40,514 nt of DNA. Source: Verrucomicrobiota bacterium (lineage in GTDB: Bacteria > Verrucomicrobiota > Verrucomicrobiia > Opitutales > UBA953). The translations under genes were made by a program, and so were the position numbers. The notes beneath the pieces are model-generated. The model saw only the letters and a list, made by a program, of their open reading frames with translations. It was not told the origin of the DNA and did not search any database. Location: contig JAURFU010000015.1 of assembly GCA_030834165.1 (NCBI GenBank), positions 1 through 40,514 on the forward strand, in the 5' to 3' direction. Below, one piece after another: positions 20,322 through 26,885 of the stretch; positions within the stretch are counted from its first letter, which is position 1, and each line of letters opens with the position of its first letter.

Positions 20322-21893
20322 TTAGTTCGGTAACGGCTGTCCGACGCCCTTCGCGCGCTGGGCCTCGAGCAAGGCCTTGAGACGGGCGACGACCTCGGGA
20401 TGCTCCTTGGCGACGTTCTTGCGTTCGCCGGGGTCGTTCTGCAGGTCGAAGAGGCGCGGGCCGGCCTGGTCGCGGCTGTCGTTCTTTTGCTCGGCCTCGG
20501 AGCCAAGGAGGTCGACGAGCGGGCCTTGGGCCTTCTTGCCCTTGCCGGGGGCGCCGACGCCGGAGATGAACTTCCAGCGGGCGTCACGGATCGAGAGATG
20601 ATTGCCCTGCGTGCTGGAGATGAGGGTCTCACGCCCCTGGCCGCCCGTCAGCGCCGCAGAGGAGTCGACGGAGTCGAGCTTCAGGAATTCCGCCGGATCG
20701 CCGCCGGCGACCTTGGTGAAGACCGCGGGCAGATCGACCTGCGAGATCAGGGCGTCGGAGACCTTGCCGACGGGCGTATGGCCTGGCCAACGGGCGATGA
20801 ACCCCACTCGCGTGCCGCCCTCGAGGATGCTGTATTTGCCTCCGCGGAAGGGGCCGGCGGGCGCATGGGCGGCGGCCTTGTTCCGCTCGACGGCCTGGTC
20901 CTTGTATCCGTCGTCGAGCACCGGGCCGTTGTCGGAGGTGTAGATCACCAAGGTGTTCTGGACGAGCCCCTGCTTGTCGAGTTCGGCAAGGATGCGGCCG
21001 ACCTGGTCGTCGAAGGCGACCACCGCGTCGCCACGCGGGCCGAGCGGTGTCTTGCCGGCGTAACGAGGATGATGGACGCGCGGGACGTGGTTCTCGTGCG
21101 AAGCGTAATAGAGGAAGAAAGGCTTATCCTTGTTGCGGGCGATGAAACCGCAGGCCTTGTCGGCGAAGGTGTCGCCCATCGTCTCGTCGTTCCAGAGGGC
21201 CGCCTTGCCGCCCTTCATCCACCCGATGCGGCCGACGCCGTTGACGAGGGCCATGTTATGTCCGTGGGACCAGTCCATCTTGAGCTTCGCCCGCTCGGCG
21301 TCCGTCTTCAGGTCGGGATCGCCCGGGAAAGGCTGCTTGTAGCTCACCTCGATGGGATCCTTCGGGTCGAGGCCGACGACCGAGCCGTCTTCCACGAAGA
21401 CGGTCGGCACGCGGTCTCCGGTCGCGGCCATGATGAAGGAGTAGGCGAAGCCGATCTGGTTCGGCGAAGGGTCGATCTTCTTGTTCCAATCGACGTCTCC
21501 CTCGCCGAGACCCAGGTGCCACTTGCCGACGACGCCGGTGACGTAGCCGAGCTTGGCCAGGCTGGCGGCCATCGTCGGGCGTCCCGGCTTGATGATGAGA
21601 CGGGCGTCGCCCGGGAGCACGCCGGTGCCTTGACGGCGCCAGGCGTATTCGCCGGTCAGCAGCGAGTAGCGCGAAGGCGTGCAAGTCGCGGAGGTGCAGT
21701 AGCCGGAGGTGAAGCGCGTGCCCTGCGAGGCGAGCCGGTCGAGGTGCGGGGTCGGGATCGCCTTCGCCCCGTAGCAACCGAGGTCGCCCCAGCCGATGTC
21801 ATCGGAGTAGAGCAGCACGATGTTCGGAGGACGCTTCTCGGCCGCGAAGACGGAGAGCACGCAGGACAGGGCAACCAGGGGTAGAAGGCGCAT
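20322..21893 (-). CDS. Secreted S1-family sulfatase (arylsulfatase A-like)
   Basis: The start is taken at ATG 21893, which gives a signal peptide (MRLLPLVALSCVLSVFAA); the open frame extends 22 codons further without support. The 523-residue product has the metal-binding N-terminus PPNIVLLYSDDIGWGDLGCYG and the formylglycine motif CTPSRYSLLTG with its Cys at residue 71. GKWHLG, FFLYYASHENHVPRVHHPRY and YTSDNGPV also match S1 sulfatases. The Cys must be oxidised to formylglycine by FGE or an anaerobic maturase, neither of which is in this window. It hydrolyses sulfate esters, probably on sulfated polysaccharide; the linkage is unknown. It heads a minus-strand set with the Gfo/Idh oxidoreductase and gntK and is divergent from the dapF-like gene across 98 bp. 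Confidence 0.93.
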   Translation of the reverse strand: MRLLPLVALSCVLSVFAAEKRPPNIVLLYSDDIGWGDLGCYGAKAIPTPHLDRLASQGTRFTSGYCTSATCTPSRYSLLTGEYAWRRQGTGVLPGDARLIIKPGRPTMAASLAKLGYVTGVVGKWHLGLGEGDVDWNKKIDPSPNQIGFAYSFIMAATGDRVPTVFVEDGSVVGLDPKDPIEVSYKQPFPGDPDLKTDAERAKLKMDWSHGHNMALVNGVGRIGWMKGGKAALWNDETMGDTFADKACGFIARNKDKPFFLYYASHENHVPRVHHPRYAGKTPLGPRGDAVVAFDDQVGRILAELDKQGLVQNTLVIYTSDNGPVLDDGYKDQAVERNKAAAHAPAGPFRGGKYSILEGGTRVGFIARWPGHTPVGKVSDALISQVDLPAVFTKVAGGDPAEFLKLDSVDSSAALTGGQGRETLISSTQGNHLSIRDARWKFISGVGAPGKGKKAQGPLVDLLGSEAEQKNDSRDQAGPRLFDLQNDPGERKNVAKEHPEVVARLKALLEAQRAKGVGQPLPN

Positions 21894-21991: not shown

Positions 21992-22846
21992 ATGCGTTTC
22001 GCCAAATACCACGCCCTCGGCAACGACTACCTGGTGCTCGAGCCCACGGACTGCCCCTCCCTCTTTTCGGCCGAAGCCATCCGCAAGGTCTGCCACCGTC
22101 ACTTCGGCCTCGGGTCCGACGGCATCCTCTACGGTCCGATCGAACGCGACGACGGCACCTTCGGCCTGCGCATCCTCAACCCCGACGGCTCCGAAGCCGA
22201 GAAGTCCGGCAACGGCATCCGCATCTTCTGCCGCCACCTCCTTGAGACCAAGCGCATCAAGGAAGGCCAGGAGTTCCGCCTGCACACCCTCGGCGGCATC
22301 GTCCGCTGCGAGGTCTTCGACGGAGGCGCCCGCATCCGCGTCGAGATGGGCAAGGTCTCCTTCCGCGCCCCGGTGATCCCGCACGTCGGCGCCGACCGCG
22401 AAGTCCTCGGCGAAGAGATCACCGTCCTCGGCAAGACCTTCAAGTATTGGGCGGCCACCGTCGGCAACCCCCACTGCGTGATCCCGGTGGACGACCTGAC
22501 GCCCGACCTCGCCAAGACCTACGGCCCGCACCTCGAGACGCACCCCAACTTCCCCAACCGCACCAACGTGCAGTTCATGAAGATCGTCGACCGTAAGAAC
22601 GTGCGGATCGAGATCTGGGAGCGCGGGGCCGGCTACACCATGGCTTCCGGCTCCTCCTCCTCGGCTTCGGCCGCCGTGGCCCGCAAAATGGGCCTGGTTG
22701 ACGCGGATTTGACGGTTAATATGCCCGGAGGTCAGATTATCATTGGCATCGGTGAGGATTATTCCATCGTGATGACAGGCCCGACGACCCCCGTAGGCAT
22801 CTTCGAGATGCACCCAGGAGTCCCGGTCCAAGACGTCGCCGTCTAG
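21992..22846 (+). CDS. dapF: Diaminopimelate epimerase homologue with both catalytic Cys replaced by Ser
   Basis: DapF converts LL- to meso-diaminopimelate for lysine and peptidoglycan. The start at ATG 21992 (MRFAKYHALGNDY) has AGAGG six bases upstream; 284 residues is normal. The DapF scaffold is clear: HALGNDY, FGLGSDGIL, NPDGSEAE, VGNPHCV, FPNRTNVQF, IWERGAGYT and VNMPGGQ. In characterised DapF the two catalytic cysteines sit in (M)CGNGxR and ACGTGACA. Here the first site reads AEKSGNGIR (Ser72, TCC at 22205-22207) and the second reads TMASGSSSSASAA (Ser219, TCC at 22646-22648). Substrate-binding Asn, Glu and Arg positions are retained. It may be a divergent epimerase with a different acid/base pair, an epimerase of another amino acid, or inactive. 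A weak terminator follows. Confidence 0.85.
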   Translation: MRFAKYHALGNDYLVLEPTDCPSLFSAEAIRKVCHRHFGLGSDGILYGPIERDDGTFGLRILNPDGSEAEKSGNGIRIFCRHLLETKRIKEGQEFRLHTLGGIVRCEVFDGGARIRVEMGKVSFRAPVIPHVGADREVLGEEITVLGKTFKYWAATVGNPHCVIPVDDLTPDLAKTYGPHLETHPNFPNRTNVQFMKIVDRKNVRIEIWERGAGYTMASGSSSSASAAVARKMGLVDADLTVNMPGGQIIIGIGEDYSIVMTGPTTPVGIFEMHPGVPVQDVAV

Positions 22847-22906: not shown

Positions 22907-22923
22907 CACCGCACACCCTCTCC

Positions 22924-25866
22924 ATGGCGCCGCGTCAGCCGTTGCCCAACATCTCCGAGGACGATCTCATCGATCTCGCCGGCGGCGCGACCGTGCTCCT
23001 CGCCAAGGAGCTGGTGGCCAAGGGCAAGGTGAAGAAAGCGCTCTGGACTCCCCCGGTCGCGGAAGCGCTGGTCGACGACGGTACCGAGTCCCGCGAAGCC
23101 CGCTGGAACCTCCGCTCCGTGACCTTCCAGCGCAACGAATGCGGCTGCGACGTCTCCGTCGGCCGCAGGAAACTTTGCGTGCACTCCGTGGCCGCCTACC
23201 TCGTGCTCGCCGCCAAGGAAGGCTACCTGAAAGCCGAGCCCGCGGCGCCGGCCAGACCGGCCGCCCCGCCCGGCAAACCGCCGACGACCGCGACGACCAA
23301 GGAGATGACGGCTGACACGAAGAAGGAAAAATCAAAGCAAGCGGAAGCGACCCCGGCAGGACCCCGGCTCAAATCCCTCACCCTTTCGGAAAAACGCGGC
23401 ACTCCCGTCGAGGTGCGCTTCATCGTGCCGCCGAACATCGCGACCGCCGCCGCGCGCGACGAGATCATCTGCCGCCTCGAACTGCGCGTCGACGGCGCCC
23501 AGGTCGCTCCGGAAAACCTCGACCGCAGCAAGGCCTGGACCGTCGAGCCCGACACGGTCTTCTTCCTGGCGATCCTCGAGAACCTCTGCCACGGCAAGCT
23601 GCAGGGCATCCTGCCGCTGACCCGCCGCCACCTGCGCCAGCTCCTCGCGATCGGCAAAGGCCTCAAGATCTTCCGCATGGCCAACGCGCCGGAGACCCCG
23701 CTCGCGTGGGACGGCGACCACCTCGACAAGGTCCACGAGCACCTCGACGAACCCGTCGCCACGCCGCAGACCAACGCCGCCGGCGAGACGCCCGACGACG
23801 GCCCGGAAGAACAGGAAGTCCGCTCCCAGGAACGCGGCCGCGAAGACCGCCCGTGGGTCGACGGCTCGATGAAGTGGCTGCGCATCCGCCTGCCCCAGCA
23901 GTCCTCCGGCCCGGTCGCCGAACTCCGCGACGTCCTGCAGCGCAGCGGCTTCACCCTCGAGACGACCACCCGCGAATGGTATCTCGCCGGCACCATCCAG
24001 GTGCTCAACTTCCTCGCCCGGCACCATAAGCTGCTGATGACGGACAACGACGCGTTCTTCACGCACAACCTGTCCCACTCGTTGCGCAACGTCGACTTGG
24101 CCAAGGCGAAGTGCGACGCGTCCGAGGAGAACGACGGTTACCGCTTCGCCATCGGCATCGACCCCGAAGGCAAGTCTCCGAAGGTCATCCAGGAAGCCCT
24201 CTCCAGCGGGCGCATGTTCTTCTACACCGACCGCGGCCCGCGCCTCATCACGCCGGAGCTGATGGAGTCGATCCGCAACGCCCAGCGTCGCATCACCGGC
24301 GAGGCCAAGCGCGACGTGGACCTGGACCTCAACCTGAAGATCGGGTACGCCGACCTCGCGAGCGCCGACGCCATCGCCGAGGAGCTGCAGGCCGCCTTCG
24401 CCCCGCCCGAGACGTGGAGCCAGCGCTCCTCCGCGATCCGCAACCTTTCGAAGCTCCAGCCCGCCCCGATCCGCGAGGAGCTGGGCAAGATGCTCCGCAT
24501 CTACCAGCAGGTCGGCGTGGCCTGGCTCTGGCACATCCATAACAACTCCCTCGGCGGCCTCCTCGCCGACGAAATGGGCCTCGGCAAGACCGTCCAGGCC
24601 TTGGCGTTCATGGAGGCCCTGCGCCAGCACCGCCACGAAGACGGCCCCTGCCTCGTGGTCTGCCCCGCCTCGCTCGTCGAGAACTGGCGCCGCGAAGCCC
24701 GTCGCTTCACCCCTTCGCTCAAGGTCCTCGCCCACCACGGCCAGAACCGCTTCACCGCGCCGGACTACCTGCAGCGCTTCGACCTCGTCATCACCTCCTA
24801 CGGCACGCTCTCGCGCGACGTCGCCGCGTTCACCGCCGTGGCCTGGGGCGCGGCGATCTGCGACGAAGGGCAGAACATCAAGAACCCGCGCGCGCAGGCC
24901 GCCAAGGCGGTCAAGCAGCTCGTGGCGAAGGGCCGCTACATCCTCACGGGCACGCCCGTCGAGAACTCGCTGGAGGACCTCCGTTCCCTCTTCGGCTTCC
25001 TGATGCCGGGCTACCTGCCCAAGCCCGAGGAACGCGTCCAGGCCGACGAACGCAAGTGGCACGACGACCGTCTGCTGCAGATGGCCGCCCCTTATATCCT
25101 GCGCCGCTCCAAGGTCGCGGTCGCCCCCGAGCTGCCGGCCAAGATCGAGCAGATCGTCTACTGCGACTTCGAGGACAACCAGAAGAAGATCTACGACGAG
25201 ATCCTCGAGTCCACCCGCCAGGAGATCTTCGAGATGGAGATGGGCGGCGCCACCCAGGCCCGCATCCAGATGGCGGCCTTCAACCAGCTGCTGCGCCTCC
25301 GCCAGATCTGCGCCGACCCGCGCATCCTCGACCCGAAGCTGGCCGAGGCCGATTCGGCCAAGCTCCAGGCCTTCCTCGAGCTCGTCGAAGAGTCCAAGGA
25401 CGCCGGCCACCGCATGCTGGTCTTCTCGACCTTCGTCACGGCCCTCCAGCTCCTCAAGGAAGCCCTCGAGGACCGCGACATCCCCTATTGCTACCTCGAC
25501 GGCTCCACCAAGGACCGCCAAGGGGTCTGCGATAAGTTCAATTCGACCCCGAGCATCCCGGTGATGCTCATGTCGCTCAAGGCCGGCGGCACCGGCCTCA
25601 ACCTGACCGGCGCCGACACGGTCATCCATTTCGACCCCTGGTGGAACCCCGCCGCCGAGGCCCAGGCCACGGACCGCGCCCACCGCATCGGCCAGACCCG
25701 TACGGTGACCAGCATCAAGCTGATCGCGGCCGGAACCATCGAAGAACGCGTCATGGAGCTCCAAAAGTCCAAGTCTGAGATGTTGCGTAAGCTCCTGAGC
25801 GAATCAGACTCCGTCTCGTCCGCCCTGAGCCTTGACGTCATCAAGGACCTACTCCGCAAGGACTGA
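22924..25866 (+). CDS. SNF2-family helicase-like ATPase with N-terminal SWIM zinc finger
   Basis: The start is taken at ATG 22924; an in-frame TTG at 22879 would overlap the terminator-like hairpin. The 980-residue product has a SWIM finger (CxC-x9-CxH: Cys73, Cys75, Cys85, His87 in NECGCDVSVGRRKLCVH). A low-complexity Pro/Ala/Lys linker (about 100-145) and a bacterial SNF2 accessory region (about 150-510) follow. The two-lobed helicase has LLADEMGLGKTVQ (Walker A, near 550), CDEGQNIKNP (motif II as DEGQ instead of DEAH), ILTGTPVENSLEDLRSLF, MSLKAGGTGLNLTGADTVIH and DRAHRIGQTR. SWI2/SNF2 proteins translocate on DNA to remodel bound proteins or polymerase. The stop is 8 bp from the tatC start, so both are probably on one transcript. 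A DNA-repair or transcription role is inference. Confidence 0.92.
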   Translation: MAPRQPLPNISEDDLIDLAGGATVLLAKELVAKGKVKKALWTPPVAEALVDDGTESREARWNLRSVTFQRNECGCDVSVGRRKLCVHSVAAYLVLAAKEGYLKAEPAAPARPAAPPGKPPTTATTKEMTADTKKEKSKQAEATPAGPRLKSLTLSEKRGTPVEVRFIVPPNIATAAARDEIICRLELRVDGAQVAPENLDRSKAWTVEPDTVFFLAILENLCHGKLQGILPLTRRHLRQLLAIGKGLKIFRMANAPETPLAWDGDHLDKVHEHLDEPVATPQTNAAGETPDDGPEEQEVRSQERGREDRPWVDGSMKWLRIRLPQQSSGPVAELRDVLQRSGFTLETTTREWYLAGTIQVLNFLARHHKLLMTDNDAFFTHNLSHSLRNVDLAKAKCDASEENDGYRFAIGIDPEGKSPKVIQEALSSGRMFFYTDRGPRLITPELMESIRNAQRRITGEAKRDVDLDLNLKIGYADLASADAIAEELQAAFAPPETWSQRSSAIRNLSKLQPAPIREELGKMLRIYQQVGVAWLWHIHNNSLGGLLADEMGLGKTVQALAFMEALRQHRHEDGPCLVVCPASLVENWRREARRFTPSLKVLAHHGQNRFTAPDYLQRFDLVITSYGTLSRDVAAFTAVAWGAAICDEGQNIKNPRAQAAKAVKQLVAKGRYILTGTPVENSLEDLRSLFGFLMPGYLPKPEERVQADERKWHDDRLLQMAAPYILRRSKVAVAPELPAKIEQIVYCDFEDNQKKIYDEILESTRQEIFEMEMGGATQARIQMAAFNQLLRLRQICADPRILDPKLAEADSAKLQAFLELVEESKDAGHRMLVFSTFVTALQLLKEALEDRDIPYCYLDGSTKDRQGVCDKFNSTPSIPVMLMSLKAGGTGLNLTGADTVIHFDPWWNPAAEAQATDRAHRIGQTRTVTSIKLIAAGTIEERVMELQKSKSEMLRKLLSESDSVSSALSLDVIKDLLRKD

Positions 25867-25874
25867 ACCCCCTC

Positions 25875-26885
25875 ATGCTTTCCACCCTCATTCGCCGCAA
25901 CAAGCCCCGGAGCGAGATGACGTTCCTGGAGCACCTGGACGACCTCCGCGTCTCGCTCATCCGCGTCGTGACAGTGTTCGCTATCGGGATGGTTGCCGCC
26001 CTTATTTTCTACCGTGAAACCCCCGCCCTGCTGAGCCTACCCCTCGAATGGGCCAAACATCCCGAGACTTCGCCCCTGGCTTTTGCGCTCAGCGAACCCG
26101 GCCCCGGACTGGCAAACATGGGTGAGCTGAAAGAATTCACCTTCATGGGCGTCTGGAAAGTGCTCATGTATGCCGCTTTCGGCGTCGGCGTGGCCGTCGC
26201 CTCTCCCGTCTTCCTCTACGAGACGGCCCGCTTCGTCGGACCGGCCCTCACGGACAGGGAGAAGAGCGGGCTGGTCCCTTTCTGCGGTGCCGCGCTCGTG
26301 CTTTTCCTCCTCGGTGCAGCCCTGGCCTTCTACTGGCTAAGCCCGATGTCCATCCAGATCTGGCAGCACTTTGCAGAAGGAATGAAGATGGAGGTGACCT
26401 GGCAGGCTTCGGATTACTACGCCTTCGTGGTGATGATGTGCCTCCTCACCGGCCTGACTTTCCAATTCCCGCTCGCGCTCATCATCCTGATGTGGCTCGA
26501 ACTCATCCGCCCTCGCACCCTCTTGAAATCGTGGCGCGGAATGCTGGTCGGCATCATGCTGCTTGTCGCGCTGATCACGCCCATCGCCGAACCGATCTCC
26601 CTGATTGTGATGACCGGGGTGTTGTTCGGATTCTACCTGGCCGCCGTCGGCGTGGGCACGGTCATCGTGCGCCGCAAACGCGTCGCCCGCGGCGACAAGC
26701 CCAACCCGGAAGACGATGATCTCCCGGACGACGATGAAGACGACGATGAGGACGACGACGGCTATCGCCCGGCCCGCTCCGTCGATCCGGTGACGCCTTC
26801 GACCCCGGCCCTGGGTTCCTCCGCGACGAACAAGCCTAAGTCCACCCCGCCGCCCGCCGAAGGCGACCTGAGTTCCCTCGACTAA
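25875..26885 (+). CDS. tatC: Sec-independent protein translocase subunit TatC with acidic C-terminal extension
   Basis: TatC is the inner-membrane receptor for twin-arginine signals. The 336-residue product carries the family start MTFLEHLDDLRVSLIRV (residues 15-31) and about six transmembrane segments. FTFMGVWKVLMYAAFGVG, PVFLYETARFVGPALTDREK and FQFPLALIILMWLELIRP match TatC positions. Residues about 275-336 form a hydrophilic tail rich in Asp/Glu (DDDLPDDDEDDDEDDDGY) and then Ser/Pro/Thr, which typical TatC (about 250 aa) lacks. No tatA or tatB is adjacent. It is followed 4 bp later by a secreted zinc-ribbon protein. Twin-arginine signals are visible in the DUF1552 protein of this window, a likely client. 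Confidence 0.92.
   Translation: MLSTLIRRNKPRSEMTFLEHLDDLRVSLIRVVTVFAIGMVAALIFYRETPALLSLPLEWAKHPETSPLAFALSEPGPGLANMGELKEFTFMGVWKVLMYAAFGVGVAVASPVFLYETARFVGPALTDREKSGLVPFCGAALVLFLLGAALAFYWLSPMSIQIWQHFAEGMKMEVTWQASDYYAFVVMMCLLTGLTFQFPLALIILMWLELIRPRTLLKSWRGMLVGIMLLVALITPIAEPISLIVMTGVLFGFYLAAVGVGTVIVRRKRVARGDKPNPEDDDLPDDDEDDDEDDDGYRPARSVDPVTPSTPALGSSATNKPKSTPPPAEGDLSSLD

Follow-up and report, generated by a model that had tools for sequence, protein, structure and literature searches.

A branch of DapF (diaminopimelate epimerase family) proteins with serine at both catalytic cysteine positions in Verrucomicrobiota and other bacteria

Diaminopimelate epimerase (DapF) converts LL-diaminopimelate (LL-DAP) to meso-DAP with a pair of catalytic cysteines. 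It serves as a model for how a proton of pKa about 29 can be taken off by a thiolate, a weak base with a pKa of about 8.5 (PMC12039745). In the DapF of C. glutamicum, alanine mutants of eight residues almost abolished the activity, these DAP-binding residues being N15, N74, N85, N159, N194, E212, R213 and T223, and a disulfide redox switch has been described for the same enzyme (PMC5296763). In Anabaena DapF, the catalytic sulfurs are reported to have no basic residue within 4 angstrom, the Pro-Glu-Met loop ahead of the first cysteine to curve round the substrate with no direct hydrogen bond to it, and the second sulfur to be close enough to the Gly227 NH for a hydrogen bond (PMC12039745).

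Departures from the cysteine pair are described in related enzymes. The proline racemase superfamily, whose fold kinship with DapF is stated in PMC11602996, includes a Ser/Cys 4-hydroxyproline epimerase and a Ser/Thr trans-3-hydroxyproline dehydratase, and clusters without one or both cysteines have been noted there (PMC4113996). PrpF and PhzF are DapF relatives without the Cys/Cys pair that use other acid/base residues, such as Lys73 of PrpF (PMC5690661). In openly licensed full text (PMC), a scope that most subscription papers fall outside, we found no report of a natural DapF with serine at both positions (Ser/Ser), and no activity, structure or genetics for one. Here we describe such a gene in a 40,514-nucleotide stretch of Verrucomicrobiota DNA (the window) and the branch to which it belongs.

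The Ser/Ser gene of the window and its active site

The window dapF (Table 1) begins with ATG; the mechanical ORF list opens the same frame further upstream, at TTG 21911. Its product matched the NCBIfam DapF model TIGR00652 over the whole length at about twice the cut-off (228.4 versus 114.65 bits), and PF01678 with 176.6 bits in two matches, one per half-domain. A Pfam scan of the protein (E up to 0.001) returned PF01678 DAP_epimerase only and no proline racemase family model. The bifunctional DapF/glutamate racemase (NF038284) is a related family, but the window protein gave only a weak match (57.9 bits against a cut-off of 350) and was rejected as a member. A sulfatase gene (20325-21893, reverse strand, upstream), a Gfo/Idh oxidoreductase and a small AAA_33 protein lie on one side of dapF, and a SNF2 helicase and TatC (22921-26885, forward strand, downstream) on the other. 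No lysine-pathway gene was found among the five scanned neighbours, and a tRNA scan of the window found none.

Table 1. Coordinates of the Ser/Ser dapF and its main features in the window
Feature	Position	Strand	Evidence
dapF, Ser/Ser type, 284 aa + stop	21992..22846	+	TIGR00652 228.4 bits, PF01678
N-terminal DAP epimerase half-domain	21998..22363	+	PF01678 2.0e-24
C-terminal DAP epimerase half-domain	22451..22786	+	PF01678 1.3e-26
Lys71 (AAG)	22202..22204	+	153/153 Ser/Ser rows; Asn with Cys72 in Cys/Ser branch
Ser72 (TCC), first catalytic Cys position (E. coli Cys73)	22205..22207	+	alignment
His161 (E. coli His159), invariant	22472..22474	+	153/153 Ser/Ser, 30/30 Cys/Cys
Glu210-Arg211, DAP-binding pair (C. 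glutamicum Glu212-Arg213, by motif), invariant	22619..22624	+	
Ser219 (TCC), second catalytic Cys position (E. coli Cys217)	22646..22648	+	alignment
Ser222 (TCC), i+3 from Ser219	22655..22657	+	153/153 Ser/Ser rows

The original prediction, made from the sequence of the window, held that TCC serine codons occupy both catalytic cysteine positions while the remaining signature motifs (GNDY, NPDGSEA, GNPHC, PNRTN and WERGAG) are kept. Our analysis confirmed both statements: in four phmmer alignments Ser72 and Ser219 stood opposite the catalytic cysteines of solved DapFs, and all of the motifs were present. The protein resembles the canonical Cys/Cys DapFs of H. influenzae, E. coli, C. glutamicum and Anabaena in length, in its two PF01678 halves, and in keeping the DAP-binding residues, His161 and Glu210. 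Unlike them, it has Ser for both catalytic cysteines, Lys71 in place of Met, Gln or Leu, Ser222 in place of the i+3 Gly of the second site and Ile78 in place of E. coli Cys79, and it belongs to a separate clade. Counted from the catalytic residues, the Pro-Glu-Met of Anabaena DapF corresponds to Ala-Glu-Lys here, and Gly227 to Ser222.

Residue conservation was counted in an alignment of 184 rows (153 Ser/Ser, 30 Cys/Cys and 1 Cys/Ser). The C. glutamicum residues were mapped by motif and by the E. coli column, without the C. glutamicum sequence itself, and on this mapping N11, N74, N159, N192, E210 and R211 were each present in 153/153 Ser/Ser rows and N63 in 152/153; residue 221 (T223 of C. 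glutamicum) was Ser in 144 and Thr in 9 rows, and E. coli also has Ser there. Two further residues distinguished the types. Lys71 occurred in all 153 Ser/Ser rows and in none of the 30 Cys/Cys rows (Met 28, Leu 1, Gln 1), and the same was true of Ser222 (Gly 29 and Ala 1 in the Cys/Cys rows). This pattern persisted after thinning to below 85% identity (100 Ser/Ser and 26 Cys/Cys rows). The i+3 residue of Ser72 is Gly75 in 153/153 Ser/Ser rows. At the position of the DAP-binding Asn159, 27 of the 30 Cys/Cys rows (L078-L101 and others) carry Val, while E. coli and the Ser/Ser clade have Asn; the Cys/Cys type of the window's class is thus itself unusual at a substrate residue.

Sequencing error and pseudogene formation, which the original prediction had argued against, were both rejected. 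All 31 loci read in the window's genus (window counted) are Ser/Ser, and six genus-mates differ from one another in the third base at each of the two serine codons (TCC/TCT at 72, TCC/TCG at 219), which excludes sequencing error. The dN/dS values of 0.07-0.11 against the same six genus-mates show that the gene is not decaying.

Extent, phylogeny and copy number of the Ser/Ser type

From the family and class searches 99 distinct loci were read (the best 30, 29 further ones and 40 hand-chosen over the identity range), of which 74 were Ser/Ser and 25 Cys/Cys. The window protein query had matches in 63 of the 79 genomes of the family set; the match in G011 was Cys/Cys and that in G062 was only a contig-end fragment. 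In the class sample 130 of 141 genomes had a match. Close matches (at least 51% identity) were present in 34 of these, and all 34 were read and were Ser/Ser; among the remaining 96 matching genomes 24 were read, and all 24 were Cys/Cys. Every genome read from the window's order in this sample (23/23) was Ser/Ser, and family f11 of the class contained both types, in different genomes.

A genome collection was also scanned with the Ser/Ser alignment, and the best 80 of at least 574 relatives were kept (hereafter the named loci). Since the query itself was Ser/Ser, the scan describes breadth and not frequency. Among these best 80 of at least 574, 79 were Ser/Ser and one was Cys/Ser, and their record titles included Dadabacteria, Chloroflexi/Chloroflexota, Methylomirabilota, Rokubacteria, Nitrospira, Aquificota, Bacteroidota, Bacillota, Armatimonadetes, Ignavibacteriae, a Myxococcales MAG and others. 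An oddity confined to one lineage was rejected on this spread. Ser/Ser DapF forms a large, apparently unremarked branch scattered over many bacterial phyla, including Nitrospirota. In a draw of 148 genomes from the phylum of Flavobacterium panacis, close matches to the Ser/Ser query were found in two only, F. panacis itself and G326 (60% identical), so Ser/Ser is the minority type in that phylum; the other listed matches had 26-41% identity, G326 and these weaker matches being assigned by identity only. A plasmid survey gave 118 matching records, none at 60% identity or more, and the first-ranked one at 39%.

Whether the Ser/Ser sequences form a clade, a question raised by the original prediction, was answered by the tree. 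With 104 rows (76 Ser/Ser, 27 Cys/Cys and 1 Cys/Ser), one branch of length 1.0 separated the types with 100/100 support, the bootstrap being not fully converged and one Cys/Cys row (L214) very long. The support was 99 when the catalytic motifs were removed (quick search, 86 rows). The tree is unrooted, and either state could be ancestral.

A second, Cys-containing dapF was sought and not found in the window's genome (2.25 Mb, 81% complete), where no further PF01678 gene was detected. The search covered 40 genomes, namely 9 relatives of the window and 31 hand-picked from the named loci (best 80 of at least 574), one of which carries the Cys/Ser gene. The gene of the Ser/Ser branch was the sole PF01678 gene in 36 of the 40; the other four, all Bacillota records (L123, L126, L136 and L165), have two, the second copy being Cys/Cys. 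The Ser/Ser copy in these four genomes may be acquired, and offers a possible natural test of redundancy. Nor did the search reveal a hidden second Cys/Cys gene in six complete single-contig relatives. In the class search none of the 130 matching genomes had two full matches, G184 and G185 representing a single gene in two pieces and G193 a weak second match (E 9e-4); the same query does detect Cys/Cys genes elsewhere (E about 1e-15 to 1e-30). These searches indicate that the Ser/Ser gene replaces the canonical dapF rather than adding to it.

Some genomes gave no match at all. Genus g4, which belongs to the window's family, is represented by eight genomes. Seven of them (G012-G018, 90-98% complete) have no PF01678 gene over the cut-off, G014 having only a fragment with a stop; the remaining one, G011, carries a Cys/Cys gene (L071). 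G165 and G182 (family f8, genus g24; 99% complete) also lack a PF01678 match, in a genus where the class search gave a DapF match in 16 of 18 genomes.

A natural change at one of the two sites was found in Bacteroidales. We sampled 198 genomes from the order of one Bacteroidales MAG; 179 genomes had a match, and the best 30 of the matching loci were read. They comprised 7 Ser/Ser proteins with Lys71, 3 Cys72/Ser219 proteins, 19 Cys/Cys proteins and 1 other Cys/Ser protein. The three Cys72/Ser219 proteins (one of them L153) all have Asn71 and keep Ser222, and they formed one branch (98/96) among the Ser/Ser sequences in a tree built without residues 70-73. In this branch Ser72 has thus given way to Cys, with loss of Lys71, while Ser219 and Ser222 stayed. 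That residue 71 changed together with residue 72 and the other site did not ties Lys71 to Ser72, although the swap is a single evolutionary event, weak as statistics but maintained. The other Cys/Ser protein (L260, from G516, whose genome has a second match) belongs with the Cys/Cys-type DapFs and carries Met71 and Gly222. A lone Cys-to-Ser change at 219 can thus occur without Ser222, which is mildly against Ser222 being required.

Lysine-pathway genes and gene linkage

The pathway was surveyed in a panel of 24 genomes, including six complete single-contig genomes of the window's order (G102, G159, G163, G171, G194 and G214). DapL was over the cut-off in all six and in 11 of the 24. LysA was over the cut-off in five of the six, with the sixth just under (294.5 versus 297.9), and in 14 of the 24. 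A meso-DAP dehydrogenase was over the cut-off in 2/24, both of them complete genomes (G102 and G171), and G194 has only a fragment of it (E 5e-4). In the four complete genomes with no such dehydrogenase over the cut-off, LL-DAP would need an epimerase, the known route to meso-DAP, for which the searches indicate no candidate there but the Ser/Ser gene. The presence of the dehydrogenase in G102 and G171 counts against reading the Ser/Ser gene as a DAP epimerase. The picture in the window's genus counts against this reading as well: DapL was over the TIGR03542 cut-off in 0/4 genomes, and LysA matches (260-271 bits) stayed below the cut-off. A DapL-like aminotransferase under the TIGR03540 cut-off was present in five genus-mates (E about 1e-102 to 1e-104), and in the window's own genome at only 4e-78.

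Among the named loci (best 80 of at least 574 relatives), 22 have lysA and/or dapL within 3 kb of the gene, when these are required to be at least 67% identical to the Tangfeifania genes; dapL-like matches at 25-29% identity beside five named loci were left out of this count. All 22 are Bacteroidota, many of them close kin, with the order dapL-dapF-lysA in Tangfeifania, and this confinement of the linkage counts against the epimerase reading. In the window's class, dapA adjoins the Ser/Ser gene in 2 of 29 loci, with dapB too in one of them.

We take Opitutus and Lacunisphaera to belong to the window's order (Opitutales). GC/MS revealed DAP in Opitutus terrae and in three strains of Lacunisphaera, at about one tenth of the E. 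coli level, the hydrolysates containing ornithine in amounts equal to or above DAP, and strain IG16b is listed with DapL and DapF (PMC5303756). The detection of DAP and the listing of both enzymes favour DAP epimerization as the role of the gene. The low amounts, and the reported lack of DL-DAP by thin-layer chromatography in the three Lacunisphaera strains (PMC5303756), count against it.

Proposed chemistry and alternative explanations

The original prediction allowed for three outcomes: a different mechanism, a different substrate, or a non-catalytic protein. Gene context, single-copy replacement and intact DAP-binding residues together point to an unchanged substrate and altered acid/base chemistry, and the other two outcomes become less likely. 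Ser/Ser DapF is thus probably a functional diaminopimelate epimerase (LL-DAP to meso-DAP) that uses its serines as the acid/base pair. DAP as the substrate is well supported by context, and the serine acid/base chemistry is what we infer. In the proposed mechanism, Ser72 and Ser219 would take over from the two catalytic cysteines. Lys71, the invariant neighbour of Ser72 and a basic residue missing there in Cys/Cys DapFs, would activate this serine, and Ser222 would hold and polarise Ser219 from the i+3 position, where a backbone NH lies near the second sulfur in Anabaena DapF. That Lys71 and Ser222 can reach the serines is suggested by published statements about other DapFs.

Serine has been reported as an alpha-proton base in the proline racemase superfamily, whose Ser-type enzymes share with the window protein a two-face acid/base site and a natural Ser for a catalytic Cys (PMC4113996). 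The serine there is positioned by its i+3 residue (Ser90-Asn93), with the same spacing as Ser219-Ser222 (PMC4113996). This parallel is limited to the second serine, since the i+3 residue of Ser72 is glycine. The superfamily enzymes also differ in that their substrates are prolines and the characterised epimerase keeps one Cys (PMC4113996), whereas the window DapF has Ser at both positions and DAP as its most likely substrate. Against serine chemistry, single Cys-to-Ser mutants of a DapF-like histidine racemase had greatly reduced turnover (PMC11602996), and a review attributes the preference for Cys to its lower pKa and easier desolvation (PMC8142540).

The same conserved residues could be read in another way, with Lys71, or a Lys-water relay, as the proton-abstracting base of a DAP epimerase and the serines as hydrogen-bonding partners only. 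We consider this possible but rather unlikely. Lys71 is as invariant as the serines and is gone where residue 72 is Cys, and a lysine is the proposed catalytic residue of the DapF relative PrpF, although at a different site (PMC5690661). That lysine (Lys73) lies at the PhzF glutamate position and not at the residue before the catalytic Cys, and PrpF and PhzF have other substrates (PMC5690661); a direct structural parallel with Lys71 was thus rejected. In Anabaena DapF, moreover, the residues ahead of the first Cys are reported to form no direct hydrogen bond to the substrate (PMC12039745), and the strict conservation of Ser219 and Ser222 would be left unexplained. Relocation of the thiol, with Cys162 (of GNPHC) or residue 224 standing in for the missing cysteines, has only a very slight chance of being correct: Cys162 is present in 151/153 Ser/Ser rows and Cys at residue 224 in 74/153, but E. 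coli DapF has the GNPHC cysteine in addition to its catalytic pair, and residue 224 is Ser in the other 79 rows, the window protein among them.

A change of substrate or reaction, by which the protein would be an elimination enzyme or would racemise or epimerise a different (di)amino acid (ornithine or lanthionine, for example), is improbable. It has a precedent in the proline racemase superfamily, where such changes follow Cys-to-Ser/Thr replacement and the Ser/Thr member is a dehydratase (PMC4113996), and would suit the ornithine content of the Opitutus and Lacunisphaera hydrolysates (PMC5303756). In the four Bacillota genomes that also have a Cys/Cys copy, the housekeeping role need not fall to the Ser/Ser copy. 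The residues that recognise DAP are kept, however, the gene is linked in relatives to lysA, dapL, dapA and dapB, and the two types never occur together in the 130 class genomes. It is more improbable still, indeed very much so, that the protein is a DapF homologue without catalytic activity, retained for a binding or regulatory role while another protein epimerises DAP. Serine is a poor base, the Cys-to-Ser mutants of the DapF-like racemase are much slower (PMC11602996), and a meso-DAP dehydrogenase exists in 2 of the 24 panel genomes; but the position as sole PF01678 gene in 36/40 genomes, the purifying selection, the kept substrate residues and the gene context all speak against a dead protein, which would also give no reason for the paired 71/72 change.

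The sequences of this branch are public, the standard model already names the window protein DapF, and single-Ser variants are known in the proline racemase superfamily. What seems to be new is the recognition that the branch lacks both catalytic cysteines yet replaces the canonical enzyme. The textbook two-cysteine mechanism of DapF may therefore not be universal. If the serine acid/base reading is true, a thiol/thiolate pair would not be required for this reaction, and a natural clade would carry it out with serine. The Ser/Ser, Cys/Ser and Cys/Cys enzymes, with their common descent, would then provide a ready-made comparison for a long-debated problem of catalysis, and a housekeeping step of lysine and cell-wall synthesis would be predicted to be insensitive to thiol reagents and to a disulfide redox switch of the C. 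glutamicum type.
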